The notes below the pieces were generated by a model. The model was not told the DNA's origin. It searched no databases and saw only the letters and a list, made by a program, of their open reading frames with translations. 64,000 nt of DNA from Chryseobacterium sp. StRB126 (GTDB taxonomy: Bacteria; Bacteroidota; Bacteroidia; Flavobacteriales; Weeksellaceae): the NCBI RefSeq assembly GCF_000829375.1, contig NZ_AP014624.1, forward strand, positions 2,480,001 through 2,544,000, given 5' to 3'. A program made the translations under genes and the position numbers. Of this stretch, positions 5,847-56,430 are shown piece by piece (position 1 is the first letter of the stretch; the number at the start of each line of letters is the position of its first letter).

Positions 5847-6367
5847 AATAATCCATAAAATAAAAGGGCTGCAGAGAATTAATTTGCAGTCATTTTTATT
5901 TGGATAGTGTAAAAAAGTTAATTATTTCCCAGGTTAGTGTTAAAATTAAGTTTTTTATAAATGAATAGTGTCGATTGTATTGATTTGAAATATAGTTGAT
6001 TACTGGTTTTTGTATATCTAAAATAGGGGAAATATCACCCAAAAGTCGTAGAACTACTACAAATTTTCAGATTAAGGCCTTAAAATTTTTTGAATCTAAA
6101 TAACCGCTTTATATTTGTTTTACCATCACATCCTACAAAGTATTATTAACGACTAAAATTTATAGAATATGACAGTAACTAAAAAAGGATCTTAACATTC
6201 TAAGCGGGAGAAGAGTAAAACCTATTCATATAGTATCTTATCCCCAGTATTTACTAGAATTTACAATTATCCATTAATCAATTCATCTTAAACTATTTTC
6301 TGAAGCTTTTTGCTTCAGGAGGTATTTGTTAGTGCCGAAAAAGAACTGAACTAAAAAACAAAAAAAT
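5847..6367. other. Intergenic stretch with two hairpins
   Basis: 521 bases without a credible gene. A hairpin at about 5867-5900 (CTGCA...TGCAG then ATTTTTATT) may end the protease transcript. A perfect hairpin at 6300-6318 (CTGAAGC, 5-base loop, GCTTCAG) lies 49 bases before the Imm51 start and is followed by GAGGT. The ATG at 6169 opens only eight codons. Confidence 0.45.
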
Positions 6368-6718
6368 ATGGACATTCACAATTTTAAAGAAACAATTAAA
6401 CCTTTTTTCTGGGTAGAACATGCTAACAGCTTTTCGGTATGCCTGGATGCAGGAAGTTATAAACAGGAAATCTTTGATGCCAGGGCAGATGAAGGTTTTG
6501 AGGGAAGCGGCTACGACTGGGGTTCTTTAGCTCAGGTTTTTCTGGCAGAGAAAAGACCGGATCTTAATGAAAGTATACGATTTGACCCCGAAGGAGGAAT
6601 GTTTTGTGTTTATTCTTCGGAAGGAGATAAGTTACAGGATTTTATCCTAGATTTTAAAAAAGCCTGTGAAGATGAAACGCTGATAACAGATTTGTTTTCA
6701 AGAGCAGAATTGGATTGA
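6368..6718 (+). CDS. Imm51 family immunity protein
   Basis: 116 residues, the usual size of Imm51. Visible family features are AGSYKQEIFDARADEGFEG, the GYDWGSLAQVFL stretch, RFDPEGGMFCVYSS, and the C-terminal LFSRAELD. Imm51 proteins are cytoplasmic antidotes found beside contact-dependent or type VI/IX-delivered toxins. No toxin gene is recognisable within several kilobases, so this is an orphan, either protecting against toxins of neighbours or left from a lost toxin locus. Two following genes on the same strand may be part of the same cassette. Confidence 0.75.
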   Translation: MDIHNFKETIKPFFWVEHANSFSVCLDAGSYKQEIFDARADEGFEGSGYDWGSLAQVFLAEKRPDLNESIRFDPEGGMFCVYSSEGDKLQDFILDFKKACEDETLITDLFSRAELD

Positions 6719-6844
6719 TTCTCAACAATAAGTTATACGTTAGTAAGTCTGCCTTTAGGGGAATGAGGGTTTTAGCATTTAATAGAAAAGAAAGATAACC
6801 GGATTCGGCCAGCAATATTTTAAACCAATCTAATAAAAAATAAT

Positions 6845-7339
6845 ATGAAGAAAATATTTTCAGAACTTAAAGGCTTTGTCATATACAGCCCGGAGCTTTT
6901 AGCAAAATATCTGCAGGATCATAACCTGCCGGGAAACAATATCCTGAAATATTTTGTAGAAAATGAACATGGAGATGTAATAACAAGATCGGGAATAGCC
7001 ATTCCTGTGATAGGGGTAGAAGAAGATTATTATTCTTTCTGCATTTCTGCTAATGAAGATCGGGTATTGGGTAATGAAGAAGTGGCTGCACAGTCTGATG
7101 GCTGGATATTCCAAACCTCCAATAACGAACTGAGAGTGGTGGGTATCGGCTATTTAAAAGATATTTCAGCAATTAATGATGAAAACAGTATCCGCCTGAA
7201 TTTGGAAAACGGATGGTTTTCGTTAAAAATACGTGCCGGCCATAAAAATGGCGAAAGACTTTTTGAGCTCAATACAAAGAAACAGGAAATCCAACCCGAC
7301 TTTAACGGAGATCTTACGGCAACGTATTATTTTAATTAA
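6845..7339 (+). CDS. Conserved-looking protein of unknown function
   Basis: 164 residues, no signal peptide or membrane segment. Mixed alpha/beta composition with GIAIPVIGVEEDYYSF and VVGIGYLKDI segments. I do not recognise the family. Its position between an Imm51 gene and another small acidic protein, with only 9 bases to the next start, suggests an accessory or immunity cassette. The next gene begins directly after its stop, so the two are probably co-transcribed. Confidence 0.6.
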   Translation: MKKIFSELKGFVIYSPELLAKYLQDHNLPGNNILKYFVENEHGDVITRSGIAIPVIGVEEDYYSFCISANEDRVLGNEEVAAQSDGWIFQTSNNELRVVGIGYLKDISAINDENSIRLNLENGWFSLKIRAGHKNGERLFELNTKKQEIQPDFNGDLTATYYFN

Positions 7340-9982: not shown

Positions 9983-10583
9983 TACATTCAGGTATTCAAT
10001 GGATGGACAAGCATTCTGTGAAGGTTAAAATATAATGGCCCAGCAGTTGAATATTTAAAAATTCAGATACTTTTCTGATCTTATACGTCATTTGAAGCTC
10101 CGAAAACGATGCTGCTTATAATTGCTATTGCGTTCCAATTCTTCCCAACTCTTAAAATATAATCTTCAATTAGAGTTTTTTATTGTGATATTACATAATT
10201 ACCCCACTGATATTGATACATATCTCTCTACTGATTCCTTGGAAGGCTTAATAATTTTAGACCAGCATATTATCTCTATTTGAAAACCCTATTGCCCTAT
10301 ATTGTCAAGCTTTGAAATCATAATGTGCTAAGTCGAAATCTTCAAGATCTTTAATTTTAGATTTTTGGTTAATAGAATAGTTGTGATTATTTCTTTAATT
10401 GGATACACAGCCACAATCCCATTTCCCAAAACTTATTCCTGAAAGGAAAACAGATGGCGAATCCAACAAAACAATTTTAAGGATAATACTATTTGCTATT
10501 GATTGGTTATTAAGCTGAAAGTAAAGAAGGAATAAAAAATACCCTCAAAAAGATATAACTTTTAAGGGTATTGCTATCTTTAG
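9983..10583. other. Stretch without recognisable genes
   Basis: About 600 AT-rich bases with stops in every frame. I see no remnant that I can name, no tRNA and no clear terminator. It lies at the 3' end of the minus-strand surface-protein island and may be decayed coding sequence. Confidence 0.35.
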
Positions 10584-11030
10584 TTACAATGCATTAACAC
10601 TGAATAGTGCTTTAAACTCGGCAAAGTTAGCATAGCTAAAATTTGTCGGATAGGAAATTCCACCAGTTGCACTTGCGGCAGCATTTTCTCCAGTAAGGTA
10701 AACCACTGTATTGAGGGTATCTCCGCCAGTTAATGAAACCATTCCGGGAACAACTACAGAGTAACGCAGTGCTGCCTGCTATGGTGTTGCCCATCGTATT
10801 GTTGCATTATCCATTATAATAGTCCCGCCTGAAGGATTGCCACCTGTATTTTTTCTTATTTCAAGATTTACTGGATAAAAAAAGCCCGTTGTATTCCGAT
10901 CTGGATTAGAATTAGGCATAATATAGGCGGCAATCAAGTAGATTCCTGATTGGGCAACTGTGTAAGTGCCGTTACTAAGATTAAAACGACCATTGGGATC
11001 TGTAACGGTTAAAATATTAACCTTGATTAT
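10584..11030 (-). pseudogene. C-terminal half of a decayed jelly-roll surface protein
   Basis: On the minus strand the frame reads IIKVNILTVTDPNGRFNL, a SGIYLIAAYIMPNSNPD strand, IRKNTGGNPSGGTI, then an in-frame TAG (10779-10781), AALRYSVVVPGMVSLTGGD and a stop at 10584-10586. This is the typical SGxYxIxxxI...DxVxV pattern of the C1q/TNF-like heads of the VGINT proteins. The signal peptide and middle module are missing, since the 5' end runs into a stop at 11031. It follows the gene at 11057 on the same strand. Confidence 0.7.
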
Positions 11031-11056
11031 TTAATCATTATGGGCTGAAATGGAAA

Positions 11057-11851
11057 TCACTCGTACATTTTATAAAAAGTAACAACCAGTCCTGATTGGT
11101 TGGCATATGTATTTCCACCTTCCGAAAATCCATTACCGTGATTTAACATCAATCTTACGGACTGTGACGCAGGAAGCTGTAATATATATGTAAATTTATA
11201 TCCTTGTATTTTTCCAGGTGCGTATCCATTACCAGAAATCTGAGTTCCCGTTTTGAGATCTGTTAACAAGGCATTACTTGTATTAACAATTCCGGCATTC
11301 ACTACGAAAAAGCTGTAATTGGTAATAAAAGCTGCTACAGAAGTGCTGTCATTATAACAGTCCAAAGTTACATCTACCCTATATGTTCCGGCAGGCAGGG
11401 TAATATTCTGACCCCCTGAAAATGTAACCCCAGGTATTGTATTTATAATTCCTGTGTTGTTAAAAGAAACAATATTATTCCCTGTACCATTGGGAATAAT
11501 AATCGGCTGACTTGAAGTTCCACCAAAAACCTGAATTCTTAAGATCTGATCTACTTCATTATTCATAAGCATTCTTTCCCAAACATTGCCTGTCCAGTAA
11601 AAATATCCTTTAGGATAATTAGATCCCCCTGTTCCTTTATTATAAATAATCGAGCCTTTTACGGGGTTATTTACTGGAGACGTATTACTTGTTAAGGAAA
11701 GAAGTTCGTATTGAGGAAATAGAACTCCTTTATCAGAGGATACTATGTCCAACATTGAAGAAAGATTAGGTGTTGTGGTATTGATTCCCACTTGTGCTTT
11801 TACAATAGAAACCAATGCAATGTTGATAATTATAAATATTTTTTTCATCAT
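11057..11851 (-). CDS. VGINT / jelly-roll surface protein
   Basis: 264 residues. Signal peptide at 1-19, then QVGINTTTPNLSSMLDI, a GVLFPQYELLSL strand, the GSIIYNKGTGG...GYFYWTGNVWERM module (about 66-92), and a C-terminal beta-sandwich with AGTYRVDVTLDCYND and SVRLMLNHGNGF, like C1q/TNF heads. Its ATG overlaps the stop of the upstream gene by four bases, so the 12662-11848-11057 genes form a tight operon. Family members are thought to be surface or outer-membrane exposed; ligand unknown. Confidence 0.8.
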   Translation of the reverse strand: MMKKIFIIINIALVSIVKAQVGINTTTPNLSSMLDIVSSDKGVLFPQYELLSLTSNTSPVNNPVKGSIIYNKGTGGSNYPKGYFYWTGNVWERMLMNNEVDQILRIQVFGGTSSQPIIIPNGTGNNIVSFNNTGIINTIPGVTFSGGQNITLPAGTYRVDVTLDCYNDSTSVAAFITNYSFFVVNAGIVNTSNALLTDLKTGTQISGNGYAPGKIQGYKFTYILQLPASQSVRLMLNHGNGFSEGGNTYANQSGLVVTFYKMYE

Positions 11852-12654
11852 AATGATTTTTGTACATGAATTAGTGAATTTGAAACTGTTATTCTTCCGT
11901 TATTGGGTGAAATACCTCCTAAAGCATTTTCATAAGTACCTCCTGTATGATGGGACAGTTTAAATGTAATGGTTGTTGGAGAAATGAGTTCAACAGAAAA
12001 TGAAAAATTAGCTCCGTGTTTTTTATCTGCACTGGCGTTAGAAGTAGCATTTTCCAAAACACTGGATCCATACTGTACCGTTCCTGAAGTATTAGTTAAC
12101 TTTGCTTCATAATAATGCACATGAGTGCGTATTGTACTGCCTAACCCTGAAGACGGAGCTTCATCCGGAACAACAATGTTTAAAGCCACAGTAACAGAAT
12201 ATTTTCCTGCAGGAAGGCTTATATTGCCCGTTAAAGGATCGTAGCTTACTCCTGTAATACTGCTAAAAATCATGCTTCCCCCTGTCATGGTCTGAAAAAC
12301 CCCATTGGCTAATCCGGCAAGCATTATGTTCGATGTATTATTCGTCACAACAGTATTGGAGACGGAATTAGCTGAAGCTGCTACTGCGCTCCAAAGTCCT
12401 TTGTTCCATATATAAAAGCCTTCCATTTGGGAGCCTCCCACATTGTAAACAATTAGTCCTTCTGCGGGATTATTTACGGGATTGGTATTATCAAACAGCC
12501 CTCCTAAAGTTACTCTTGCAGGAAGAAAAGCTTTGCCTGTATTACCAGATACCTCCAATACAGATGAGGGATGAGGATTTGTTGTGCCAACTCCCACCTG
12601 GGCATATAAATTTCCTATCAAAAATAGAAAGGAAGTAATGAGTATATTCTTCAT
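11848..12654 (-). CDS. VGINT-type (VGVGT) jelly-roll surface protein
   Basis: 268 residues. Signal peptide at 1-18 (NLYAQ), VGVGTTNPHPSSVLEV, FLPARVTLGGLF, then GLIVYNVGGSQMEGFYIWNK (about 72-91), and a jelly-roll-like C-terminus with AGKYSVTVALNIVV and TITFKLSHHTGG. Same plan as its operon neighbours, with a C-terminus clearly different from both, as expected if heads diversify faster than N-termini. Seven bases separate it from the upstream gene. Confidence 0.8.
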   Translation of the reverse strand: MKNILITSFLFLIGNLYAQVGVGTTNPHPSSVLEVSGNTGKAFLPARVTLGGLFDNTNPVNNPAEGLIVYNVGGSQMEGFYIWNKGLWSAVAASANSVSNTVVTNNTSNIMLAGLANGVFQTMTGGSMIFSSITGVSYDPLTGNISLPAGKYSVTVALNIVVPDEAPSSGLGSTIRTHVHYYEAKLTNTSGTVQYGSSVLENATSNASADKKHGANFSFSVELISPTTITFKLSHHTGGTYENALGGISPNNGRITVSNSLIHVQKSL

Positions 12655-13994: not shown

Positions 13995-14369
13995 TTAATT
14001 TAGAATGTTTTCAACTTCACAATTTTCACCTTCATTGTCCGTCATACTAATAAACAACCTCTTCCATTTGGTTACAGTATTCCTGCTTAACTTAAAATGT
14101 TTTGCAAGCTGTGAATTAGTTAATTTATTTTTCTTTTGATAATCTAACATCATCAGTATGGAAGATTTATTGTAAGATCGATGACTTTGATTAAATGCTT
14201 CTGTCCTCTGATCTGATATACCAAAAATTCTGCGGTTAAGCTCAATTACATCTAATACTGATAGGTTTTCTTTATTCAACAAGAACTTACATTCCTCTTT
14301 TCTAGATGGGTATTTTTTGTTGATTATGTCATTATAGATCTGGTGATAATCTGGAGTTGACTTTTGCAT
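13995..14369 (-). CDS. HTH protein B (transposase-like DNA-binding domain), copy 1
   Basis: 124 residues. The N-terminal half has the B-family pattern (DYHQIYNDIINKKYPSRKEE, VIELNRRIFG), and the C-terminal half has a helix-turn-helix, LDYQKKNKLTNSQLAKHFKL then SRNTVTKWKRLF. It resembles the N-terminal HTH of transposases but has no DDE or other catalytic part. Copies are at 49491-49823 and 55000-55317. It starts 16 bases after the stop of HTH A, so the two are co-transcribed. Probably a small DNA-binding regulator; target unknown. Confidence 0.75.
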   Translation of the reverse strand: MQKSTPDYHQIYNDIINKKYPSRKEECKFLLNKENLSVLDVIELNRRIFGISDQRTEAFNQSHRSYNKSSILMMLDYQKKNKLTNSQLAKHFKLSRNTVTKWKRLFISMTDNEGENCEVENILN

Positions 14370-14385
14370 ATTGTGTCTAATAATG

Positions 14386-14868
14386 TTATTTTATATTTAG
14401 TCTTAACTTGTTAACCAGAGTTTCTGCCTTGTTTCCTGCAGCATATTTTTTGATCCAGTTATGTAAAGTTGTTTTAGGAATCTTATATTCACTTATGATC
14501 TGTTCCTTTGTTTTTTCCTTGTATTCAATAGATTCCAAAATGAAATCGATTACTTCTTTGGTGTAAATATTTTTTCTAAACTGTGGAAGCTGAGATCCAT
14601 TTTCTTTTATAGAGGTGCTGTAATTAACTCTTGCAGGTGGAGCATATAATATTAAATGTTGAGAATAGATTCTGAAAAAATCATATTCAAGTAATTTGCA
14701 CCATTTTAATAAAGTATGAGTATCTAACTGTTCCTGTAAAAACATTTGATCTATTTGTTCACTAGTACATTTGAAAAACTTGCAAATACGTTCTGTTTCA
14801 ATTCCAGTTTCCAAAACCCTTTGCTTAATCAGTGATCCAATATAAATATTTTTAAAATCTATGTTCAT
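14386..14868 (-). CDS. HTH protein A (two DNA-binding domains), copy 1
   Basis: 160 residues. The N-terminal domain (1-85) contains FKNIYIGSLIKQRV and the block LLKWCKLLEYDFFRIYSQH, nearly identical in all three copies and Cro/XRE-like in helical pattern. After a variable linker comes FRKNIYTKEVIDFILE and a second HTH, ISEYKIPKTTLHNWIKKY (about 124-141), of transposase type. No catalytic domain. It begins 99 bases downstream of the VGINT gene at 14968 and precedes HTH B, an order repeated at 48981 and 54282. Automatic pipelines may call such proteins 'transposase'; I think regulator is more likely. Confidence 0.75.
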   Translation of the reverse strand: MNIDFKNIYIGSLIKQRVLETGIETERICKFFKCTSEQIDQMFLQEQLDTHTLLKWCKLLEYDFFRIYSQHLILYAPPARVNYSTSIKENGSQLPQFRKNIYTKEVIDFILESIEYKEKTKEQIISEYKIPKTTLHNWIKKYAAGNKAETLVNKLRLNIK

Positions 14869-14967
14869 CTTAGTATTAAGAATAATGTTTAGCGGATTAA
14901 TAAAATTCTGTATATAGTTTAATCTTTAAAATTTGGAAACTGCCGTAAAAAGCAATTTCCAAAGTGA

Positions 14968-15939
14968 TTATGGTGTAGATAATTGCTGTAAAGAAAAGTT
15001 TCTACTTTCCGACAAAGAAGCAGGGGTAGAAATATGAGCATCTACTGTAGGCTTATTCAGTGCCCCCCAGTTCATTGTAAGATAGACTTTATCCCCAGCA
15101 TTGAGGTGTACAATGCAATCCACACTTATAGGTGTATTTCCAGCTGCTGCACCGTTATTATCAATATTACCCCTGTTTCCTCCAATAATATTTGAAAGAG
15201 CAGTTCCATTCTTGGTAATATTCAAATTGATTCCCGTAAAAGCTCCAGTTCCTGAAACAGCTCCACCACTTCCAAAATAAGCATATCCCTCTATTTTATA
15301 AACACCTGACTCAAGTATTTGCCAGTAATCTCCTGCATCATTCCAAACTGCGGAACCTCCCTGATTCACAATAACATCACTTACAGAAAATGGAATAATC
15401 TGAGGAATACTGTTATTGAAATTTGTTAGTGTAGTTCCAGAATAGGTAACTGTATCAGAAGCCCCTAATGCAGCAATTGTTGGGGTTGTTTTATTGATCA
15501 GAATTCCTAACTCCCAGGTAGTTCCGGTTGTTGTTCCTTTGCTGATAAGCATTGTATATCCACCAGGTGTTAGGATGACACTTGAAACACCTGCTCCGGA
15601 TTGATTATCAATTAGTTCAGTTCCGCTTGCTGTAATTGTAAGCGATGCAGTTCCAACATTTTTGATGTAATAAACTCTTCCCAGTATATTTCCACTGGCG
15701 GGTGTAGCTACTGTTGCGGCAGGTAAAGTAAATGTCCCTGCTGAGGAACCACTAAAAGCCATATAGAAATCACCAATACCCAAGGTTGTGGAAACTGATG
15801 TCCTTTTGTATTGACCCGCTATAGATCCATTCACGGTAAAAGTACTGCCTGGAATTGCTGTATTTACTCCGACATTTCCTGCCTGCGAATAGATAATATT
15901 GGGTAATCCCAATAAGGTTGCTAATAATAAATTTTTCAT
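14968..15939 (-). CDS. VGVNT-type exported protein with C1q-like head
   Basis: 323 residues. Signal peptide at 1-18 (IIYSQ), AGNVGVNTAIPGSTFTVNGS, then a Thr/Ser/Gly-rich stalk-like domain (40-155) with GTFTLPAATVATP and LTITASGTELID, resembling phage-fibre sequences. The C-terminal C1q/TNF-like head (about 190-300) shows SGVYKIEGYAYFGSGG, LNITKNGTALSNI and LNAGDKVYLTMNWG. It is followed by the HTH A/B pair on the same strand. Likely a trimeric surface fibre, by fold analogy. Confidence 0.8.
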   Translation of the reverse strand: MKNLLLATLLGLPNIIYSQAGNVGVNTAIPGSTFTVNGSIAGQYKRTSVSTTLGIGDFYMAFSGSSAGTFTLPAATVATPASGNILGRVYYIKNVGTASLTITASGTELIDNQSGAGVSSVILTPGGYTMLISKGTTTGTTWELGILINKTTPTIAALGASDTVTYSGTTLTNFNNSIPQIIPFSVSDVIVNQGGSAVWNDAGDYWQILESGVYKIEGYAYFGSGGAVSGTGAFTGINLNITKNGTALSNIIGGNRGNIDNNGAAAGNTPISVDCIVHLNAGDKVYLTMNWGALNKPTVDAHISTPASLSESRNFSLQQLSTP

Positions 15940-18892: not shown

Positions 18893-19139
18893 TGTATATG
18901 TTTTTAGAATTGTGTTTTACCTTTAGATATATCCTACACCAAAGCCGGGATACCATTATAATTTTTCATCTTAATCTGTATTAGTAGTAAACCTGAATAA
19001 CTACAGCATTACTTGTTACAAATCACATGAAATTACTTTATGTAAGCAAAAAACTTAGGTACCAACGAAGTACTCAATGTTTCAAAATGTTGATAATCAG
19101 ATGTAAGTTCTATTCGTTGAGTTTTTTTGCAACCATAAG

Positions 19140-19898: not shown

Positions 19899-21503
19899 TT
19901 ATCCTGTCTGATTTCTTATCCAAACTACTATATCTTCCTGTGCAGGGATATTTAATCTTTTCCTTAAATTGTATTTATTATTTTTTATAGTCTGGACAGC
20001 TTTAAAGGTATAATTAGCAATATCTTTTGTATTGAATCCTAAATAAATATAAGCAGTTAATACAAGTTCGGAAACTTTTAAAGTAGGATTAATACTGAGA
20101 ATTCTACTGCGAAAATCGGGATAAACCTCTTGAAAGCGTCCCCAGAACTCAGGATGGTTTTTTTTTGCCAATTGTATTATTTCATCAAAAGTTTCGTTTA
20201 CTTTTTGCTCTAATACTTTCACCTGTAAATCTTTTTGCAAAATAGCTGTTGTATTTTCTTTCAACAATAGATCTTTTTTTTGCACTTTCTTGTAATATGC
20301 AATACTTAGTAGAACTATTAGAATTGTTACCCCTAAAAATAATCCTGCAATAATGTAATACCATTTCTTATTCGATTCTTGGATCTGTTTCTTTTCATCG
20401 TCAATGATTTTTTTTCCAGAGGTCTGTAAAGCGATCAAATTACCTTTCTCAAAGCTATCCCGAATTTTTGTATACTTTTGCAGATATTCATTAGCTTTAT
20501 AAACATTGTTCTGAAGATTATATATTTCAGCGATTTCTTTATAATTCTTCATCATATTTTTAGGTCTGTTCATTTTAATTGATAAGGCGAGAGATTTTTC
20601 GTAGAACTCCAAAGCCTTATTATAGTTTTTTATATTTTCATAGTACTGGCCAGACATATAATTAAAGACTAAATAGTCGAATGGCTCCGTAGAGTTTTTT
20701 AGTAAACCTTCAGCCTCGCGAAGATAAAATTTTGCAGAGTCTAGATTTTTCTTATTTTCAAGAAAATAGCTTGTAAGGTTAGTTGCTTCTACTACTCGGG
20801 GTAAAATTTTATAAGCTTTGTGTATATAATAGTACATAGAATCATTATATCCAATCAGTCCGAAGTTTATAGCCTTATTTCCATAAATATAATGCAGGCG
20901 TTTTCTTTTTCGCTGTTTATCTTTTATTTTTAAAGCTTCCTTTAGTGCCTTATCAAAGCTTTCGTTAGATTTTTCAATCAACCCTAATTCATGATAATTT
21001 TTTCCGTAAGCGGCAAAAAATGCTGAGAGTAATGCAGGATCGTCATCAAATGTATAATAGAGAGATTCTGCCTTTTGCAGGTATACCTGTTCTTCACTGT
21101 ACTTTCCCAAAGAATGAAGAAAATTTACCATGTGAATATATCCTCTTGCCCGGCCTTTTGTATAATTTATTTCCTCTGATAATTGTATTGCTTTTTTAGT
21201 TTGTTCAATCCCATCATGAATTCTGCCTTCTTGCAGGTATTGGCTTCCTATTTTATCTTGTAAACGGTCTATTTTTTCGGGAGACCATTTCTGAGTATAG
21301 AATACACTGGACAAAGACAAAAAAAAGATTAAGAATATCCTGTTTACTGCCGGGAATAATATACCTGCATTATTTTTCTGAACATTAATATTTTTTGCCC
21401 GTATATTCATTAAAGAATATAAAATATTTTTAATTATACCAATCCCTTCCTGCGTATCTGTAATTTTAAGAGAGGATAGACAAAATAAAGTTATCTTTTG
21501 CAT
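19899..21503 (-). CDS. TPR / LuxR-like HTH regulator with chimeric N-terminus
   Basis: 534 residues as the frame runs. Residues 1-56 are not regulator sequence: they match the N-terminus of the VGINT protein at 17391-18155 (QKITLF, GIGI, NAGILFPAVNR against KKITLF, GIGI, SAGILFPTVSR) but the SQVGINT signature is destroyed. From about residue 57 a normal exported regulator begins (IFLIFFLSLSSVFYTQK), followed by TPR repeats to about 360, a membrane segment near 375-395, coiled coil, and the HTH (LGFNTKDIANYTFKAVQTIK, about 475-494). The original start codon of the regulator is missing; only ATGs in the VGINT remnant (21503 or the internal one at codon 32) remain in frame. It may be a working fusion or a dead gene. 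Confidence 0.7.
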   Translation of the reverse strand: MQKITLFCLSSLKITDTQEGIGIIKNILYSLMNIRAKNINVQKNNAGILFPAVNRIFLIFFLSLSSVFYTQKWSPEKIDRLQDKIGSQYLQEGRIHDGIEQTKKAIQLSEEINYTKGRARGYIHMVNFLHSLGKYSEEQVYLQKAESLYYTFDDDPALLSAFFAAYGKNYHELGLIEKSNESFDKALKEALKIKDKQRKRKRLHYIYGNKAINFGLIGYNDSMYYYIHKAYKILPRVVEATNLTSYFLENKKNLDSAKFYLREAEGLLKNSTEPFDYLVFNYMSGQYYENIKNYNKALEFYEKSLALSIKMNRPKNMMKNYKEIAEIYNLQNNVYKANEYLQKYTKIRDSFEKGNLIALQTSGKKIIDDEKKQIQESNKKWYYIIAGLFLGVTILIVLLSIAYYKKVQKKDLLLKENTTAILQKDLQVKVLEQKVNETFDEIIQLAKKNHPEFWGRFQEVYPDFRSRILSINPTLKVSELVLTAYIYLGFNTKDIANYTFKAVQTIKNNKYNLRKRLNIPAQEDIVVWIRNQTG

Positions 21504-22485: not shown

Positions 22486-22509
22486 AGCTTATTTTAGTTT
22501 CTCAACCAG

Positions 22510-22594
22510 CGGAGAGTGAGGGATTCGAACCCCCGGACCTGTTACAGTCAACAGTTTTCAAGACTGCCGCAATCGACCACTCTGCCAACTCTCC
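22510..22594 (-). tRNA. tRNA-Ser (anticodon UGA), copy 1
   Basis: The minus strand reads GGAGAGTTGGCAGAGTGG at the 5' end, an anticodon loop CTTGAAA with TGA anticodon, a long variable arm (class II), a T-loop GGTTCGAATCC and a matching acceptor CTCTCC plus discriminator G. No CCA is encoded. The gene is identical to that at 34715-34799. Confidence 0.95.
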
Positions 22595-34690: not shown

Positions 34691-34714
34691 AGCTTATTTT
34701 AGTTTCTCAACCAG

Positions 34715-34799
34715 CGGAGAGTGAGGGATTCGAACCCCCGGACCTGTTACAGTCAACAGTTTTCAAGACTGCCGCAATCGACCACTCTGCCAACTCTCC
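34715..34799 (-). tRNA. tRNA-Ser (anticodon UGA), copy 2
   Basis: Identical to the gene at 22510-22594: class II tRNA with TGA anticodon and no encoded CCA. The upstream side joins apparently chromosomal sequence, so this is the better candidate for the original chromosomal gene. Confidence 0.95.
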
Positions 34800-43011: not shown

Positions 43012-43281
43012 GTTGAGCCTTACAATTCGTATATTGTAAGGATTATTTTATTTTTATGGAAAATCTTTTAGGATGTCTTTACTCATCATGGCATCTATAA
43101 TGGGGGAAATCTCCATTTTCTTTAGTTTAGGGTAGATATAGCTTTTTTATAAATATCCGTATGAAGCCATTTTTTATCGACAAAAATCTATGAAATTTCA
43201 CTTTTTTCATTGTTGTATAAATGATATTTTTGTGTTCATCTTATTTATAGGTGTATTTTGTTTCTTAATCTCATTGATTTG

Positions 43282-44739
43282 ATGAAAAATTTCCATATTC
43301 TTTTTCTTTTATTGAGCGGCCTCTTTATTCAGGCTCAAACTGGTATGGAAAAGCAAGTGGATAGTCTTTTAGATAAGTCTTTTACAGAATTTTCTGAAGT
43401 ACAATTAGTTTCTGCTCTTAAGAGTACTAATGAAGCTTTAAAAAAATCAGATAAAATTGATTATTCGAAAGGAAAAACTTTGGCAAATATCTACATCGCC
43501 AAGGTATTGGCTGAAACAGGAGGATATAATGAAGCATTAGGGTATTTAAAAAATGCAGAACACGAGTCCTATTTTTCGTCTTCTATAGATATACAGGTTG
43601 AGGTCTGCAGGCTGAGAGGAAGAACATATGGACTGCTTAAGATGAGGAAACTGGCCCTTAAGGAATTTTATCAGCAATTGAAATTTTCTCAACAAATCAA
43701 AGATTCTTATAGAAGGCAAATGTCAACATACTGGGCATATGAAAACTTAGCAGAAATTCATACTCAGATGAACCAACATGATTCTGCCTGGGTATATGTA
43801 CAGCGGCAAGAAGATGTTTTAAAAAAGATGAAAGAGGAAAATGTCTTTTTCGATCTTAGCGGAACTTATGCAAAAAAGGGACAGATGTACACTATCCGGA
43901 AAGATTATGCAAAGGCTCAGGAATATCTGGACAAATCATTGGCTCTGCTCGAAAAATATAAAGGGACTTATTTATTCTACGTTTTGGAGAATTATGGAGA
44001 CCTTGAAGATGCGAAAGGAAATAAAGAAAAGGCTATCTATTATTACCGTAAGGCACTTCAAAATGCAGTTGATCTGGAAGATAAAGATGCAGCCAAACAC
44101 TTGTACAGGGTTCTTGGAGATTATTTTATGAAGAATAAACTTGACCTCAAAGAATCCAATGAGTATCTTTATCAATATCAAAAGCTAAGTGATTCTCTTG
44201 ATACAGCCAACAAAGAAGTGGTAGAGCAGGCCTTAAGCCAGGTTCTCGATCAGAAAGACCATGAAAACAAGATGAAAAGCAGACAATATGTGTATCTTAT
44301 TGTATCTATAGCTATTTTATTAATCATTGTTGCTTTATTTTGGTACAGATGGCATCTCAAAAACAAAAGATTAATTTATAAAAATAAAAAGACCCTTTCT
44401 GAAATGAGCCAGGTGACTGTGGGACTCGAAAAGAAAATAGAGGAAAATAAATTCAATGATCTTATTGTTTTGGCAAAAAATAATAATCCTGGATTTTTAA
44501 CCCTTTTCTCAGAATTATACCCGGACTTTATACAAAAATTAAAAAAATATGATCCCAAAATCCGTAGTAGTGAACTGTCTTTCTGCGCAATGGCATACCT
44601 GAATTTTTCTGCCAAAGACATTGCTACTTATACATTCGTGACCCTGGGAGCTGTTGAAATGAGGCGAAGCAGGCTCCGTAAGAAATACAATATCCCTTCA
44701 GAGATAGACTTTAACAATTGGATGAGAAGAGAAGGATAA
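43282..44739 (+). CDS. Membrane-anchored TPR / LuxR-like HTH regulator
   Basis: 485 residues from ATG 43282, which opens a signal-like leader (MKNFHILFLLLSGLFIQAQ); the frame upstream has only a TTG. TPR-type helices to about 320 (YAKAQEYLDKSLALLEKY, GNKEKAIYYYRKALQNAVD), a membrane segment at about 335-355 (YLIVSIAILLIIVALFWY), coiled coil, and the HTH (AYLNFSAKDIATYTFVTLGA, then EMRRSRLRKKYNIPSEIDF). The HTH is shared with the proteins at 632, 19899 and 55486. It precedes the plus-strand surface-protein island on the same strand, with a terminator directly behind, so it is its own unit. Confidence 0.85.
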   Translation: MKNFHILFLLLSGLFIQAQTGMEKQVDSLLDKSFTEFSEVQLVSALKSTNEALKKSDKIDYSKGKTLANIYIAKVLAETGGYNEALGYLKNAEHESYFSSSIDIQVEVCRLRGRTYGLLKMRKLALKEFYQQLKFSQQIKDSYRRQMSTYWAYENLAEIHTQMNQHDSAWVYVQRQEDVLKKMKEENVFFDLSGTYAKKGQMYTIRKDYAKAQEYLDKSLALLEKYKGTYLFYVLENYGDLEDAKGNKEKAIYYYRKALQNAVDLEDKDAAKHLYRVLGDYFMKNKLDLKESNEYLYQYQKLSDSLDTANKEVVEQALSQVLDQKDHENKMKSRQYVYLIVSIAILLIIVALFWYRWHLKNKRLIYKNKKTLSEMSQVTVGLEKKIEENKFNDLIVLAKNNNPGFLTLFSELYPDFIQKLKKYDPKIRSSELSFCAMAYLNFSAKDIATYTFVTLGAVEMRRSRLRKKYNIPSEIDFNNWMRREG

Positions 44740-47483: not shown

Positions 47484-47568
47484 ATTCTAATTACACAAAT
47501 GATCCTACGGATTTATAAAAATCTGTATTTCTCAACACTACACACAAGGATAAATAAATATACAACAC

Positions 47569-48876
47569 ATGAAAAAAAACATCATTCTTTTAGGAACGCT
47601 ATTGATTTCCGGCTTTGCATTATCACAAGTAGGAGTGAATACAGCAACGCCACAAGCAACGTTTGATATTGTAGGGGCTTCAACGAATACTGCTAAAACA
47701 GACGGACTGATTGCACCAAGACTAAAGGGTTCTGAACTGAAAGCCAAAGACGCATTATATACTGCGGCACAAACAGGAGCCATTGTATACGTTACTGAAG
47801 CTTTGGCATCTACCGGTACAACTACAAAAACAGCTAATGTAACCACAGTAGGGTATTTCTATTTTGACGGATCAGCATGGCAAAAAATAGCATATGGATC
47901 TTTTACAGAAGCCGATGGTGTCATTGGTAATGAAGTACTTAATGCAACAACTAACGGTGGTTTAACCAGGACAGGATCAGGAACTGTAGCAAATCCTTAT
48001 ACACTGGGCCTTACTACCGGAACTGTTAATGGGCAGGTAATGACGTGGAATGGGACTACATGGAATCCTGCAAATCCTCTGAATATTTATAACGCTGACG
48101 GAACACTTACAGGAATAAGAACTCTAACTCAAAATGGTAATAATCTTAGTTTTCAAGGGGTTCAAAGAACTCAGTTTGAAAATAGTGCAGGAATAGGAAT
48201 ACAGCAAGACTCAGGTACTGGAACGAGGTCTTCAATAGGACTTTCTAATGGTGGAGCTTATCAGCTTTGGATATATACAGATAAAAATAATGCAGCACAA
48301 ATCAGTGCTTCTGGCAATAGTACATCTTTAGTAATAGGAACTGGTAGTACAAGTAATCCTTCAGGAATTGATTTTAATACATGTTCAGGAGGAGGTACAA
48401 CAGGCAGCCAGAGGGCAGAAATTGATGGAAACGGAAGATTTAATATCAATAATACGTTAAGCGTAGGATATAGTAGTCAGCAAACTTTCACAGGCACTCA
48501 GAAACTGAAAGTAAACGGAAGTATCGTGACAACAGGCGGTACTTATCCTGATTATGTTTTTGAAGACTACTATAATAAAAACTCAGCTATAAAACCTACT
48601 TATAAGTTTACGTCATTATATGATACTGAAAAATTTATTAGGGAAAACAGGCATCTTCCAGGGGTAACTTCTATCAGAGAACTTGAAAAAACCAAAGATG
48701 GGTATTCTTTTAATATTTCAGACCTGTCTGTACAATCGTTGGAGAAGATTGAAGAATTGTATTTGTATACCATAGAACAGCAGAAGCAGATTGATGAACA
48801 GAAGTCTCAAATTACTTTGCTGCTTACCATTACAGAAAAGCTGAAGTCGGAGGTAGAATTTCTGAAAAAGCAATAA
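47569..48876 (+). CDS. VGVNT-type exported fibre protein with coiled-coil tail
   Basis: 435 residues. Signal peptide at 1-20 (ALSQ), VGVNTATPQATFDIVGAS, GLIAPRLKGSELKAKDALYT, VGYFYFDGSAWQKIA, a Thr/Gly/Asn-rich fibre region, and the C-terminal module typical of Bacteroidota fibre proteins: DYVFEDYYNKNS, FIRENRHLPGVTSIRELE, then the LEKIEELYLYTIEQQKQIDE coiled coil (about 385-435). The tail looks like the intramolecular chaperone region of phage tail fibres, without an evident S74 catalytic pair. HTH pair copy 2 starts 104 bases behind it. Confidence 0.85.
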   Translation: MKKNIILLGTLLISGFALSQVGVNTATPQATFDIVGASTNTAKTDGLIAPRLKGSELKAKDALYTAAQTGAIVYVTEALASTGTTTKTANVTTVGYFYFDGSAWQKIAYGSFTEADGVIGNEVLNATTNGGLTRTGSGTVANPYTLGLTTGTVNGQVMTWNGTTWNPANPLNIYNADGTLTGIRTLTQNGNNLSFQGVQRTQFENSAGIGIQQDSGTGTRSSIGLSNGGAYQLWIYTDKNNAAQISASGNSTSLVIGTGSTSNPSGIDFNTCSGGGTTGSQRAEIDGNGRFNINNTLSVGYSSQQTFTGTQKLKVNGSIVTTGGTYPDYVFEDYYNKNSAIKPTYKFTSLYDTEKFIRENRHLPGVTSIRELEKTKDGYSFNISDLSVQSLEKIEELYLYTIEQQKQIDEQKSQITLLLTITEKLKSEVEFLKKQ

Positions 48877-48980
48877 GATATTGAATAATGTGATTACAGT
48901 GTTTAGGTACAAAGGGGGCAAAAATTGTCCCCTGAAGTACTGATTGAATAAACGTTGATGAATTAAAATTTTATTTGAAG

Positions 48981-49448
48981 ATGATAAAACACAATGTATT
49001 GGTAGATTTTAAAGATATTCATATGGGAAATCTGATAAAGCTTAGGGTTGTTGAGAAAAAGATAGGGTTGTTACGGATATGTGGCTTTCTTAAGTGCAGC
49101 GCGGAAGAAATAGAAAAGATGTACATCTCCAGCAGTATTGATTCTGAGATGCTTTTAAAATGGAGCAAACTATTGGAATATGACTTCTTTCGTATTTACT
49201 CGCAGCATATCATTCTATTTGCTCCCTGTAACTCTGATCAGGGAAAAGAGCAGCCCAAAGAAGATACAGTATTACCTAATTTTAGAAAAAGCCTTTACAC
49301 CAGAGAAATTATTGATTTTATGCTGAACGAATATAATTCCGGGAATATGTCCAGACAAGAAATCCATAAAAGGTATAATATCCCGAAATCAACCTTTCAT
49401 AAATGGTTGAATAAATATAATAGTGAACTTAAAAGGTCTGAAGAATAG
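48981..49448 (+). CDS. HTH protein A, copy 2
   Basis: 155 residues from ATG 48981. FKDIHMGNLIKLRV, ICGFLKCSAEEIEKMYISSS, the block LLKWSKLLEYDFFRIYSQH, a linker, FRKSLYTREIIDFML and the second HTH KRYNIPKSTFHKWLNKYN (about 130-147). Same two-domain plan as 14386-14868 and 54282-54710. It lies directly downstream of a VGVNT protein and 42 bases before HTH B. Likely DNA-binding regulator without catalytic domain. Confidence 0.75.
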   Translation: MIKHNVLVDFKDIHMGNLIKLRVVEKKIGLLRICGFLKCSAEEIEKMYISSSIDSEMLLKWSKLLEYDFFRIYSQHIILFAPCNSDQGKEQPKEDTVLPNFRKSLYTREIIDFMLNEYNSGNMSRQEIHKRYNIPKSTFHKWLNKYNSELKRSEE

Positions 49449-49490: not shown

Positions 49491-49823
49491 ATGAAAATAA
49501 ACCGCCCCAATTATAAAATTATTTATCAGGATATGCTTCAAAAACAGCATCCGGATAAGATAAAAGCCTGTAAAGAACTATTAAAAAAAGAAAATCTGGA
49601 TACAGCAGACATTCTGGAACTTAACCGTAGAATCTTCCCCCAGATTTATGATAACAAAGAAAAATCTTCCCAAAAGCATCGCGCCTACAATGAATCTGAT
49701 ATTTTGAGGGTCCTGGATTATCAGAAAAAAAACAGGCTGAACAACTCACAACTGGCCAGCCACTTTAAAATGAGCAGAAATACCATTACTAAATGGAAAA
49801 AGCTGGAAAAGCTGGTGAAATAA
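49491..49823 (+). CDS. HTH protein B, copy 2
   Basis: 110 residues. NYKIIYQDMLQKQHPDKIKA, ILELNRRIFPQIYD, then LDYQKKNRLNNSQLASHFKM and SRNTITKWKKLEK. About two thirds of positions agree by eye with copy 1 in the HTH half. It ends shortly after the HTH. A hairpin-like AAGACT ... AGTCTTTTTTT at about 49935-49970 may end the transcript. Confidence 0.75.
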   Translation: MKINRPNYKIIYQDMLQKQHPDKIKACKELLKKENLDTADILELNRRIFPQIYDNKEKSSQKHRAYNESDILRVLDYQKKNRLNNSQLASHFKMSRNTITKWKKLEKLVK

Positions 49824-52784: not shown

Positions 52785-54044
52785 ATGAAAAATTATCTCC
52801 TTCCATTATTTGTAATGGCTTATTCGCTCAACTATTCACAGGTTGGCATCAATACCCCTAATCCGCAGGGAATCTTTAATATTGATGGGAAAAAAGACAA
52901 TAATGCCACAGGAAGTCCTACTGCAGGGCAACAGGCCAATGATTTTGTAGTAACAGCCGACGGAAGTGTTGGGATGGGAACTACATCGCCTGATCTGTCG
53001 GCAATGTTAGAACTCAATGTCAGCCAGTTGGCATCAGGAAAGCAGAAAGGTTTTCTGGGACCAAGAGTGGCTTTAACAGCTTACAACGACTCTTCTACAA
53101 TTCCTAATCCTGCTATCGGGCTTTTGGTTTATAATTTGGGAACGCAATCTACATTTACCTACGCCGGATATGTATATTGGGATGGTGCCCAATGGAGACC
53201 GCTGGACGGGCGGTTATTACAGCAGGGAAGTATAGGAGCTTTGAGATGTACGGATGCTAATCTTGATCCGCTGACATATACTGCCGGAACTCCTTTTCAG
53301 GGAACAATGACTATTCCTTATGCTGGAGGAAACGGCGGAATATATGCTGCACAGACACTAGGACCAGTAAACGGACTTATCGCAACCATTACACAAGGGA
53401 ATTTTGCACAGGGATCAGGAACTTTAATCTATACAATTTCCGGAACACCTACAGTCTCAAGTCCCAATACAACGGTATTCCCTGTTTCTGTCGGCGGGCA
53501 AACGTGTAATGCAGAAGTGGGCGGAGGTAAAAAGCTTAGTCCGGGAGAGTACCAGTTCTTCACGTATGAAGTTCCGGCAACTACAACAGGGTTATTAAGT
53601 ACTATGATTCCGAATCCACCTATTTTAGGCGGAAAAGTTAGGCTGGATCTTAGCTTTTTGTCCAGTTCCAATACAGGGTCAGGCGGAGTGACATACAATC
53701 CCAGATTGGTGAATGTATCTTCCGGTAATGTTAAAATGTGGTATTCGGCATTATCCAGTGTAGACCGTTTCCGTAGAGCCAATATCTTAGTAGCTCCGGG
53801 AGGTTATGTAGAAACAGATAACGGGATTTACCTTAACTGGGGGGATAATATGAACAGCAGTTCTACACCAATAAATTCTACAAGCAGCTCTGATGATTCT
53901 CAGGAAATAGAAACCATAGATCTGGCTATTGATGGAGTTTGGTATCGATTAACCGTTTTTGTCTATGTAGATAATTTAAATGATACAATTCCTGCCAATA
54001 ACATCAGACGTGTTCATATTACAGCACAAAGAATGTCTTCTTAA
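52785..54044 (+). CDS. VGINT-type exported surface protein
   Basis: 419 residues. Signal peptide at 1-18 (LNYSQ), VGINTPNPQGIFNIDGKKDN, DGSVGMGTTSPDLSAMLELN (a second signature copy), FLGPRVALTAYN, GLLVYNLGTQSTFTYAGYVY followed by WDGAQWRPLDG. The rest has a bacterial Ig/fibronectin-like linker (GTLIYTISGTPTV) and a beta-rich C-terminus (GKVRLDLSFLSSSNTGSGG, WYRLTVFVYVDNLND). A strong terminator follows, then HTH pair copy 3. Proposed surface exposure is by family. Confidence 0.8.
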   Translation: MKNYLLPLFVMAYSLNYSQVGINTPNPQGIFNIDGKKDNNATGSPTAGQQANDFVVTADGSVGMGTTSPDLSAMLELNVSQLASGKQKGFLGPRVALTAYNDSSTIPNPAIGLLVYNLGTQSTFTYAGYVYWDGAQWRPLDGRLLQQGSIGALRCTDANLDPLTYTAGTPFQGTMTIPYAGGNGGIYAAQTLGPVNGLIATITQGNFAQGSGTLIYTISGTPTVSSPNTTVFPVSVGGQTCNAEVGGGKKLSPGEYQFFTYEVPATTTGLLSTMIPNPPILGGKVRLDLSFLSSSNTGSGGVTYNPRLVNVSSGNVKMWYSALSSVDRFRRANILVAPGGYVETDNGIYLNWGDNMNSSSTPINSTSSSDDSQEIETIDLAIDGVWYRLTVFVYVDNLNDTIPANNIRRVHITAQRMSS

Positions 54045-54049
54045 TATTG

Positions 54050-54083
54050 AGTTCCGGCGGGGCGGAGCCCCGCCGGAACTTTT
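54050..54083 (+). terminator. Strong Rho-independent terminator
   Basis: Perfect 14-base GC-rich stem (AGTTCCGGCGGGGC, loop GGA) followed by TTT. It separates the VGINT gene from HTH pair copy 3. Confidence 0.9.
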
Positions 54084-54281: not shown

Positions 54282-54710
54282 ATGAATTATAAAAATATTC
54301 ATATAGGAAACCTGATAGAGAAAGCCGTTTCCGAAAACAATATAGAATTGTCCCGCATCTGTAATTTTTTTCATTGTACAGAAAAAGAAGTTGGTGAAAT
54401 GTATATTTGCAGCAGCCTGGATGCCGAAATTTTATTGAAATGGAGCAAACTTTTGGAATATGATTTTTTCAGAATCTATTCCCAACACCTTATTCTTTAT
54501 GCTCCTCCTTCACCTAGAATAAAGAATGCTTCATCTGAAGAGAAAAAAACAGAATTACCCCGGTTTCGTAAGAATATTTATACCCGGGAGGTTATTGATT
54601 TTGTTCTTGAACAGATAAAAAATGGTGAAATGACTAGGGCAGAAATTGTTATACGATACAAAATCCCCAAAACAACCCTTCATAAGTGGATTGGTAAGTA
54701 CAGTCAGTAA
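54282..54710 (+). CDS. HTH protein A, copy 3
   Basis: 142 residues. YKNIHIGNLIEKAVSENNIE, ICNFFHCTEKEVGEMYICSS, LLKWSKLLEYDFFRIYSQH, LYAPPSPR, FRKNIYTREVIDFVLEQIKN, and the HTH IRYKIPKTTLHKWIGKY (about 123-139). Shortest of the three A copies. It is followed not directly by HTH B but by a small BamE-like gene. Terminator 54050-54083 lies upstream, so it should have its own promoter, as in the other copies. Confidence 0.75.
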   Translation: MNYKNIHIGNLIEKAVSENNIELSRICNFFHCTEKEVGEMYICSSLDAEILLKWSKLLEYDFFRIYSQHLILYAPPSPRIKNASSEEKKTELPRFRKNIYTREVIDFVLEQIKNGEMTRAEIVIRYKIPKTTLHKWIGKYSQ

Positions 54711-54791
54711 ACTGTTGTAAAAGACTTTCAGAAAATCGCGAAGGCGAATCTATTATTGGTCTTACATCATTCAAAAGCTCAAAATTACGAT

Positions 54792-55013
54792 ATGAAAAAT
54801 ACAGTATTGAATAACGATAAAGTATTGATCGGCTTATCCAAAAAGGAAGTTGTAGTCAGGCTGGGGAATGGGTTTAACTTTTACCCGGATAATCAATGGA
54901 GCTACATTCTGAAGAGATATTGGTATGGCAGAAAAAAGGTTTTGTATATAGACTTTGACGCTGCCGGAACAGTAATCCGTCAATCTATTGAATCAAAATA
55001 TGGAAGAATATAA
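54792..55013 (+). CDS. Small BamE-like-fold protein of unknown function
   Basis: 73 residues from ATG 54792; no signal peptide. LIGLSKKEVVVRLGNGFNFY and YWYGRKKVLYIDFDAAGTVI follow the 'GxSxxEVxxxLG ... L.I.FD.-G.V' pattern of BamE/SmpA-like domains, here cytoplasmic. Its last 14 bases overlap HTH B copy 3, so they are translationally coupled. The gene is absent from the other two HTH pairs. Confidence 0.5.
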   Translation: MKNTVLNNDKVLIGLSKKEVVVRLGNGFNFYPDNQWSYILKRYWYGRKKVLYIDFDAAGTVIRQSIESKYGRI

Positions 55014-55317
55014 ACAACCTGATTTTAAACAGATCTACACAGATATTATTAACCGTAAATGTCCACATAAATACAATCTGTGTGAACATTTATTGTCTAA
55101 AAATGAGCTTTTAGCATTGGATATCCTGAAGCTTAATACCATTATTTTTGGAAACTCTGAAAAAAGGAACAGCCAGTACCGTTCTTATAAAAGAACTGAT
55201 ATAATGAGAATCCTGGATTATCAGAAAGAGAATAATCTCAACAACACCCAGTTAGCGCTTCGATTTAAACTCAGCAGAAATACTATTGGAAAATGGAGAA
55301 AAATCTTTTTGATATAA
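55000..55317 (+). CDS. HTH protein B, copy 3
   Basis: 105 residues from ATG 55000, which overlaps the end of the BamE-like gene; the frame upstream has only a TTG. DFKQIYTDIINRKCPHKYNL, ILKLNTIIFGNSEK, then LDYQKENNLNNTQLALRFKL and SRNTIGKWRKIF. Same design as the B proteins at 13995 and 49491. A multi-TM HTH regulator follows after 168 bases. Confidence 0.75.
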   Translation: MEEYKQPDFKQIYTDIINRKCPHKYNLCEHLLSKNELLALDILKLNTIIFGNSEKRNSQYRSYKRTDIMRILDYQKENNLNNTQLALRFKLSRNTIGKWRKIFLI

Positions 55318-55485: not shown

Positions 55486-56430
55486 ATGTTTCGTAAAATC
55501 TGGGATCAGATAATGAACAGGCATATTGCTCCTGATACAGGTCCGCTTGAGCTTATTGAAGCTCAAAGAATGAATTTATTTGCGTTTTCTATTGGAGTTG
55601 TTCTGATCTTTAACGGATGCAGAGACCTGTTGTTTGGTTTAAAGGTCAACTTTTTTGTTTTATCGGCATTGGGGATTTTTTATCTCTTCCTTTTCTTTTT
55701 TACAAAAGTGCGCTATAATCATTTGGTAACGCTATTTAGTTTAGAACTTTTTCTTTTTCTGATCTTCTTTTTTTCATCCACTACAGGTTTTGAAAACGGG
55801 TTGTCATTATATTATTTTGTCATTATGCTGGCCTCACTGTTTATTTTCAATTCTAAAAAAACAGTCTGGTATAATCTGATTGTGTATCTCACCGCCCTTA
55901 TTCTTTTCAGCATCAGTCATTATTATGATTTCAGGATATTTACCATCGAAGGAGCAGATAATGTGCTGTTTTCAGAAAATCAAAGATTGATTACCTTTTT
56001 ACAGGTATTCTTAGGGGTTAGTATCCTTGGATATTGTATCCTTACAAAACAGTTCAAGATTGTAAAATTATATCAGCAGGCCATGAGAAGTGAGAAGATT
56101 ATTGCTGATATGAGAGCAAAACTCAACAGTAAATATCAGATAGATTTGGAAGGTATCGTAAAGCTGGCCATGAATGATGATATTGCCTTTATTCCTAAAG
56201 TTAAACAAATGTTTCCCGGTTTATATGATAATCTGATGGAATGTAATCCTGATATGAGTGCTGATGAATTTAAGTTGTGTGCTTTGATTAAACTAGGTTT
56301 CACAACAAAAGACATTGCTGAATACAATCATCTTGCAGTACGTACCATTCAAACCAGAAAAAGCAGACTCAGAAAATCATTTGGAATTTCCGCTGATGTT
56401 GATCTGTACAAATGGATTGATACTGTATAG
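55486..56430 (+). CDS. Multi-TM membrane regulator with LuxR-like HTH
   Basis: 314 residues. About six membrane segments between residues 28 and 190 (LFAFSIGVVLIFNG; FFVLSALGIFYLFLFFF; LVTLFSLELFLFLIFFF; LYYFVIMLASLFIF; LIVYLTALILFSI; LQVFLGVSILGYCIL), a coiled coil, and the C-terminal HTH LIKLGFTTKDIAEYNHLAVR with IQTRKSRLRKSF. The C-terminal 100 residues align with those of the TPR regulators, with the TPR sensor replaced by a membrane sensor. It probably senses something in or at the membrane and controls nearby surface-protein genes; the signal is unknown. Confidence 0.8.
   Translation: MFRKIWDQIMNRHIAPDTGPLELIEAQRMNLFAFSIGVVLIFNGCRDLLFGLKVNFFVLSALGIFYLFLFFFTKVRYNHLVTLFSLELFLFLIFFFSSTTGFENGLSLYYFVIMLASLFIFNSKKTVWYNLIVYLTALILFSISHYYDFRIFTIEGADNVLFSENQRLITFLQVFLGVSILGYCILTKQFKIVKLYQQAMRSEKIIADMRAKLNSKYQIDLEGIVKLAMNDDIAFIPKVKQMFPGLYDNLMECNPDMSADEFKLCALIKLGFTTKDIAEYNHLAVRTIQTRKSRLRKSFGISADVDLYKWIDTV

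Follow-up and report, generated by a model that had tools for sequence, protein, structure and literature searches.

The DNA analysed here, referred to as the window, is a stretch of 64,000 nucleotides from Chryseobacterium sp. StRB126 (contig NZ_AP014624.1, positions 2,480,001 to 2,544,000). Within it, a gene for a secreted protein bearing a VGVNT or VGINT motif is followed on the same strand by two small genes, A and B, that encode helix-turn-helix (HTH) proteins. This module occurs three times. Genes were called as the longest open reading frames (ORFs), with no gene finder, and the features are as follows:

14968..15939, minus strand: copy 1 VGVNT-type secreted protein gene, 323 aa (ORF; signal peptide by eye; VGINT profile match)
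14932..14963, minus strand: copy 1 hairpin of 13 pairs between the VGVNT gene and A (minimum free energy of the gap −16.8, z −3.5)
14386..14868, minus strand: copy 1 A, 160 aa (predicted XRE-type fold at about 7–75; transposase-type HTH at about 104–142)
13995..14369, minus strand: copy 1 B, 124 aa (four predicted helices at 8–62; HTH at about 68–110)
47569..48876, plus strand: copy 2 VGVNT-type gene, 435 aa (ORF)
48906..48941, plus strand: copy 2 hairpin between the VGVNT gene and A (gap z −3.3)
48975..49448, plus strand: copy 2 A, 157 aa (ORF, comparison with copy 1)
49491..49823, plus strand: copy 2 B, 110 aa (ORF, comparison with copy 1)
52785..54044, plus strand: copy 3 VGINT-type gene, 419 aa (ORF)
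54049..54081, plus strand: copy 3 strong hairpin and short T-run between the VGINT gene and A (z −6.0 over the first 106 bases of the gap)
54282..54710, plus strand: copy 3 A, 142 aa (ORF, comparison with copy 1)
54756..55013, plus strand: 85-aa ORF between A and B, found among the three copies only in copy 3 (no PADLOC match)
54988..55317, plus strand: copy 3 B, 109 aa (ORF, comparison with copy 1)

The coordinates confirmed the layout that the original prediction had given for copy 1, with all three genes on one strand, 99 bases between the VGVNT gene and A, and 16 bases between A and B. Copies 2 and 3 were likewise present where the same order had been said to recur, apart from the extra ORF that separates A from B in copy 3. 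The conserved core attributed to A, LLKWSKLLEYDFFRIYSQH, was found in copies 2 and 3 and carries one change, S to C, in copy 1. The A proteins of copies 2 and 3 are 47–57% identical to that of copy 1 and the B proteins 49–54%, implying that these pairs are old paralogues of copy 1. The closest named relatives of copy 1 are Chryseobacterium bernardetii proteins for B (94–95% identical) and C. jejuense CC143 for A (91%). The copy 1 VGVNT protein matched no Pfam or NCBIfam family at E 1; it may be a surface fibre, as its signal peptide, recognized by eye, and its motif suggest. A search of the window against Rfam returned two tRNAs and nothing else.

A appears to consist of two heads, a predicted N-terminal Cro/C1-type (XRE) fold and a C-terminal transposase-type HTH. 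The five helices that define the XRE fold were all predicted within residues of about 5–75, and the core noted earlier corresponds to helices four and five of this fold, which the original prediction had overlooked. The recognition helix of the XRE head (residues 36–43) is acidic in most of 78 A proteins, which is more in keeping with contact or dimerization than with the reading of DNA. The second head is a basic HTH. In B, only an HTH and a helical N-terminus were recognized; structure searches, the second of which covered residues 61–117, named no fold for the N-terminal half, a result with no bearing on novelty. The C-terminal recognition helices are near-invariant at most positions, with few that vary, in the 78 A and 95 B proteins compared. 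These C-terminal HTHs resemble IS3, IS481, resolvase, and terminase domains, of which only the HTH parts match; the HTH_7 model was found in 42 of the 78 A proteins, with no resolvase catalytic domain. The absence of a nuclease or DDE domain, asserted previously, was borne out for the six module proteins and for the families listed for the 78 A and 95 B relatives. Sources nevertheless label A a "transposase".

The association between A and B was assessed in 20 related genomes, 18 from a sample of the genus and two (G177 and G308) from a sample of the order, which do not constitute a random draw. A same-strand B lies downstream of A within 2.5 kb at 97 of the 109 A sites and within 700 bases at 93, with a median spacing of 27 bases; the two genes are therefore not mostly apart. 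The 109 A sites derive from 113 rows after the exclusion of two second pieces and two short fragments, and the 109 B sites from 110 rows after the exclusion of one second piece. The trees of A and B co-vary, as judged from 99 of 119 A sites (100 have B within 700 bases, identical pairs being taken once), and one database protein (P0203) is a fusion of part of A to B. Solitary A and solitary B both occur in the 20 genomes. Of 118 sampled genomes of the genus, 114 carry A, the copy number ranging from 0 to 20 per genome; in the order, 34 of 296 sampled genomes carry it, 30 of them belonging to this genus or family. Among the 20 genomes, 13 hold one A and seven hold 12–20.

The 5.50-Mb genome that contains the window, a single contig, has 13 A places, 11 intact and two decayed (the last four of 15 search rows are pieces of the two decayed places), and B, complete or broken, adjoins 10 of them. 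In matching loci of C. jejuense (G005), the median ratio of nonsynonymous to synonymous substitution rates (dN/dS) was 0.13 for A (eight reciprocal best matches) and 0.14 for B (six), compared with 0.11 for 12 VGINT genes and 0.11 for 37 other genes. A and B are conserved neighbours that stay and evolve together. At one locus of another genome (L187), an A–B pair with its flanks is tandemly duplicated inside a VGINT array (5647–7296 and 10399–12046; a 1.65-kb repeat, 99.2%), and the VGINT leaders there are also repeated.

VGINT-type genes were scored by a 14-sequence N-terminal profile plus the motif. A second group, class T, comprises TPR or membrane proteins with a LuxR-like end; its profile, grown from one seed, retrieved 96 proteins, including four from the window but none from the control stretches. 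Eight genomes supplied 17 control stretches of 20 kb each, taken at round-number positions; the own genome contributed eight of these stretches. Paralogues and neighbouring control positions are not independent, nor are the counts for the named loci (L039–L118), which partly overlap the 20 genomes. In the 20 genomes, 72 of 108 A sites have a VGINT gene no more than 5.5 kb away, compared with 12 of 122 control positions, so that A is not found mostly away from such genes; the corresponding counts are 49/87 for the named loci and 8/11 for the own genome. Class T genes occur within the same distance at 42/108, 22/87, and 6/11 A sites, and at 0/122 control positions.

The orientation is strict. 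The gene directly upstream of A in the 20 genomes is a VGINT gene on the same strand in 30 of 104 cases and on the opposite strand in none; same- and opposite-strand counts are 27 and 1 of 83 in the named loci, 3 and 1 of 11 in the own genome, and 3 and 1 of 253 for control genes. This count takes identical A genes once (106 of the 108 in the 20 genomes). The suggestion that the co-occurrence in the window is unlikely by chance extends to the whole genome, where eight of the 13 A places fall within 5.5 kb of a VGINT gene and such zones cover 7.3% of the sequence (binomial p 7e-7, assuming independent sites, although neighbouring copies are not). The own genome was counted as holding 60 VGINT genes, the 68 search rows having been reduced by five that were second stretches of a gene already counted and by three short fragments; one excluded fragment lies 3 kb from a decayed A, an exclusion that works against the reading favoured below. 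Several other A sites adjoin giant Ig-like adhesins and small secreted partners (8/119 sites by string match). A first criterion, by which any protein of at least 700 aa counted as a surface protein, held at 78 of 108 A sites but also at 115 of 187 control positions, too many for it to be kept.

All three window copies have a hairpin between the fibre gene and A. In a wider comparison, a strong hairpin was detected in 21 of 40 fibre-to-A gaps, compared with 2 of 23 gaps between VGINT genes, 7 of 27 between a VGINT gene and another gene, and 18 of 68 ordinary gaps. The Bacteroidota housekeeping promoter box is TAnnTTTG. This box is enriched before ordinary and VGINT genes, hardly before A, and not before B. 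The hairpins, the scarcity of the box, and the strict direction fit a supply of A/B by transcripts that leak through from the fibre operon. An alignment of 12 regions upstream of A at a sulfate-permease locus revealed no conserved operator.

With about an even chance of being right, in our estimate, A and B are two subunits of a small, non-mobile chromosomal DNA-binding regulator built on transposase-type HTHs, which exerts feedback or cross-talk on surface proteins. The pair probably helps to decide which secreted surface proteins are made, as far as comparisons of sequence can indicate. Its paralogues have spread chiefly behind VGINT and other secreted-protein genes and on the same strand, often after a hairpin and without an enriched housekeeping promoter box. 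A and B would be made by transcription leaking through the terminator of the fibre operon, and their level would report the activity of that fibre locus. Each pair would then recognize a single type of site both locally and at other loci, thereby tuning (feedback) or ranking (cross-talk) the display of surface proteins. The control could be by activation or by repression. The class T proteins, which recur near VGINT clusters and A/B, may serve as sensors of these surface loci.

Several observations weigh against a dedication of the pair to fibres. A lies beside a sulfate permease gene in 11 of the 20 genomes and beside an ABC1/UbiB-type kinase gene in five, with the families checked, and neither locus holds a fibre gene. 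These two core loci account for A in 11 of the 13 single-copy genomes, one of the 11 being assigned by tree position and one by flanking genes without the permease (L227, placed in the sulfate-permease class, lacks the permease gene). The two remaining single-copy genomes have A beside a class T gene in one and near a VGINT gene in the other. Furthermore, 23 of the 29 VGINT zones of the own genome have no A, and six hold one. In the A tree, read without support values, the permease and kinase groups each form one clade, the permease clade including one contig-end copy, and the rest is star-like. The A at the kinase locus of G177 (L244) is missing from the ORF set and was seen in the comparison of locus sequences. 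The two fibre-free core copies suggest that the pair had an older role and was recruited later. Of the dedicated regulator set for surface fibres that had been proposed, the evidence supports a conserved pair, seemingly not mobile, that is over-represented near VGINT genes and shares their strand; the link with fibres is strong without being exclusive, and a dedication to them is not supported.

G009, G045, G051, G117, and G177, the five genomes whose only A/B pair is at the kinase locus, each carry one solitary B elsewhere. At kinase loci that lack A/B (L275, L276, L277, L280, L281, and L285), a small opposite-strand gene between a 499-aa gene and the kinase gene seems, by eye, to be a gap filler; it possibly encodes a short peptide precursor.

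The fibre-free core copies would be expected of a general DNA-binding pair, a nucleoid or housekeeping regulator with no special role in fibres, whose extra copies gather in recombining and duplicating VGINT arrays and are kept by mild selection. The duplicated array with A/B inside at L187 and the two decayed A copies of the own genome are in line with such an origin. However, drift would not easily produce so strict a direction (30 on the same strand, 0 on the opposite one) or hairpins so much more frequent than in gaps between VGINT genes. The constraint on A and B equals that of neighbouring genes, and class T regulators lie near 42 of 108 A sites. We regard this account as possible, though rather unlikely.

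The near-constancy of the C-terminal recognition helices bears on how many targets there may be. Paralogues that keep most of this helix would be expected to bind similar DNA, making cross-talk between different pairs likely and strictly locus-specific regulators less so. A private activator or repressor of the adjacent fibre gene only, with one pair per locus, as the earlier proposal implied, would account for the adjacency and direction beside VGINT genes, for the co-divergence of A and B paralogues, and for the few recognition-helix positions that vary. Separate sites are nevertheless hard to explain with helices so nearly constant among the 78 A and 95 B proteins, and specificity would have to reside in the few variable positions, the XRE part, the N-terminus of B, or the linker. 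We consider a strictly private regulator doubtful and give it little credence.

A further possibility is that A/B is an insertion sequence or its remnant, an IS3/IS481-like OrfA with a helper that prefers sites behind terminators. Compatible with this origin are the resemblance of its HTHs to transposase, resolvase, and terminase domains, the "transposase" label of A, the wide range of copy number (0 to 20 per genome), and, at 5 of 108 A sites, genes of other families no more than 3 kb away that look like transposases by eye. Against these stand the lack of a catalytic domain in the window copies and in the families listed for their relatives, and the orientation of the VGINT gene directly upstream, which matches that of A in all 30 cases. 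The three window regions share no inverted ends, and no clear DNA similarity extends beyond the genes; A/B is not carried inside an insertion sequence with recognizable ends. The A copies of the own genome are 45–60% identical to copy 1, with no recent near-identical copies, and orthologues in matching loci are under purifying selection. Copy 1 A, the only A compared with plasmid and phage collections, had no match there. At the kinase locus, three filled and six empty sites, representing 9 of 14 sequences, displayed no clean insertion edge. On these grounds, namely the missing ends, the similarity confined to the genes, the purifying selection, the kinase-locus comparison, and the unmatched copy 1 A, we rejected A/B as a mobile element, and an insertion-sequence origin is highly improbable. 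A toxin–antitoxin or defence pair with A as an XRE-type antitoxin is barely credible: the predicted fold of A resembles HigA and Stl, but B has only an HTH and a helical N-terminus, both partners have an HTH, PADLOC yielded no credible match (its lowest E, 0.0065, was to the terminal part of an unrelated model), and solitary A and B exist. A toxin domain was not recognized in the B proteins examined.

The regulator of surface proteins favoured here has partial counterparts in known systems. In Bacteroides capsule loci, UpxY is described as preventing premature termination and UpxZ as repressing non-adjacent loci, both being encoded at the operon start (PMC7315117). As in that system, two small regulators accompany each of several surface-antigen loci in one Bacteroidota genome, and cross-regulation between loci would be a shared logic; A/B differ in being HTH proteins at the downstream end of the operon, not the start. 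A NusG-type antiterminator domain, a mark of one partner in UpxY/UpxZ, was absent from the Pfam matches of the six A and B proteins at E 1. The PapB-type regulators of E. coli are small DNA-binding proteins encoded with a surface organelle, some of which act on other fimbrial loci (PMC12388093). The likeness lies in small DNA-binding proteins encoded with surface structure genes, and the differences in operon position and phylum; the six proteins had no Pfam match to PapB/PapI-type families at E 1. Both systems serve as working comparisons, and membership of either family is not claimed.

The predicted fold of A residues about 5–75 resembles the XRE regulators ImmR, HigA, and C.Esp1396I, from which A differs in its acidic recognition helix, its second, transposase-type HTH, and its usual partner B. 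IS3/IS481 transposases and resolvases resemble the C-terminal HTHs of A/B in sequence; A/B differ in having neither a DDE or resolvase catalytic domain nor element ends, and copy 1 A in having no plasmid or phage match. Among the matches listed by text searches, there was no literature on A, B, or VGINT genes.

A bolder version of the regulatory reading, tentative and on balance unlikely, is that the 1–20 A/B pairs of a Chryseobacterium genome form a cross-talk network that ranks surface-protein loci, in which each active locus leaks through its terminator into its own pair, all pairs recognize one common DNA element, and an active locus dampens or allows the others. If this is true, Bacteroidota would have arrived at a capsule-type hierarchy a second time and independently, by domesticating transposase HTHs and converting one XRE domain into a contact surface. 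In either version of the regulatory reading, a family named "transposase" and present, as A, in 114 of the 118 genus genomes would be a resident regulator, offering a handle on the choice among dozens of secreted VGINT-type proteins.

A 15-base motif, GATTCTAAAAACACA, arose from k-mer enrichment upstream of A and downstream of B and from the L187 VGINT leaders. Searched with up to two mismatches from 250 bases before to 30 after the gene start, it was found at 27 of 234 VGINT genes (an enrichment of about 30-fold), 8 of 187 A genes, 2 of 175 B genes, 1 of 83 class T genes, and 5 of 1361 other genes. Almost all of these matches point the same way. It often lies 4–35 bases before the ATG (in L187, L106, L043, L246, L177, and others), and one match is present in the window:

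18897..18914, minus strand: GATTCTAAAAACACA match

With up to one mismatch, 12 genomes yielded 118 matches, compared with 10 for the reversed pattern. The motif was first assumed to be the A/B target. This was rejected, as the four sampled genomes of the genus without A have 1, 7, 3, and 3 matches (up to one mismatch); two of the A matches, moreover, fall inside the A reading frame, which also argues against a target. A copy number and motif number correlate across 32 genomes (Spearman 0.67), with VGINT number and phylogeny remaining as confounders. GATTCTAAAAACACA may act as a promoter element or a leader element in a surface regulon. Four copies stand in tandem, about 77 bases apart, in an intergenic region of L368 in a related genome (G242:C3:834000–839000). 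In nine of 12 genomes, one GATTCTAAAAACACA belongs to a strongly conserved element consisting of an 11-base inverted repeat followed by GATTCTAAAAACACA and ATGATGAAAAAAAATTTA; its sites include one near base 963994 of the own genome (L369) and others in L309, L318, L320, L323, L327, and further loci. An Rfam search of four loci of this element found nothing.

The four class T proteins of the window are located as follows:

43258..44739, plus strand: TPR protein with a LuxR-like end by eye, upstream of copy 2, associated but not part of the pair (T profile 115.5 bits)
19899..21503, minus strand: TPR protein, upstream of the copy 1 VGINT cluster; associated (T profile 113.7 bits)
55486..56430, plus strand: protein with no TPR or other Pfam match, 168 bases after copy 3 B; associated (T profile 80.1 bits)
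632–2134: class T protein (TPR or membrane protein with a LuxR-like end)

We also observed a 21-base identical direct repeat, with one copy at 46187–46207 inside a VGINT gene and the other at 47482–47502 in the leader of the VGINT gene that follows. C. jejuense (L160) lacks the intervening 1.3 kb, and the break falls at the repeats. Two tRNA-Ser(TGA) genes lie on the same strand at 22509–22594 and 34714–34799, and the halves of a phage-type integrase are found in separate ORFs (33240–33737 and 33787–34461) just inside the second. The region between the repeated tRNA genes, about 12 kb, is probably a decayed integrated element.
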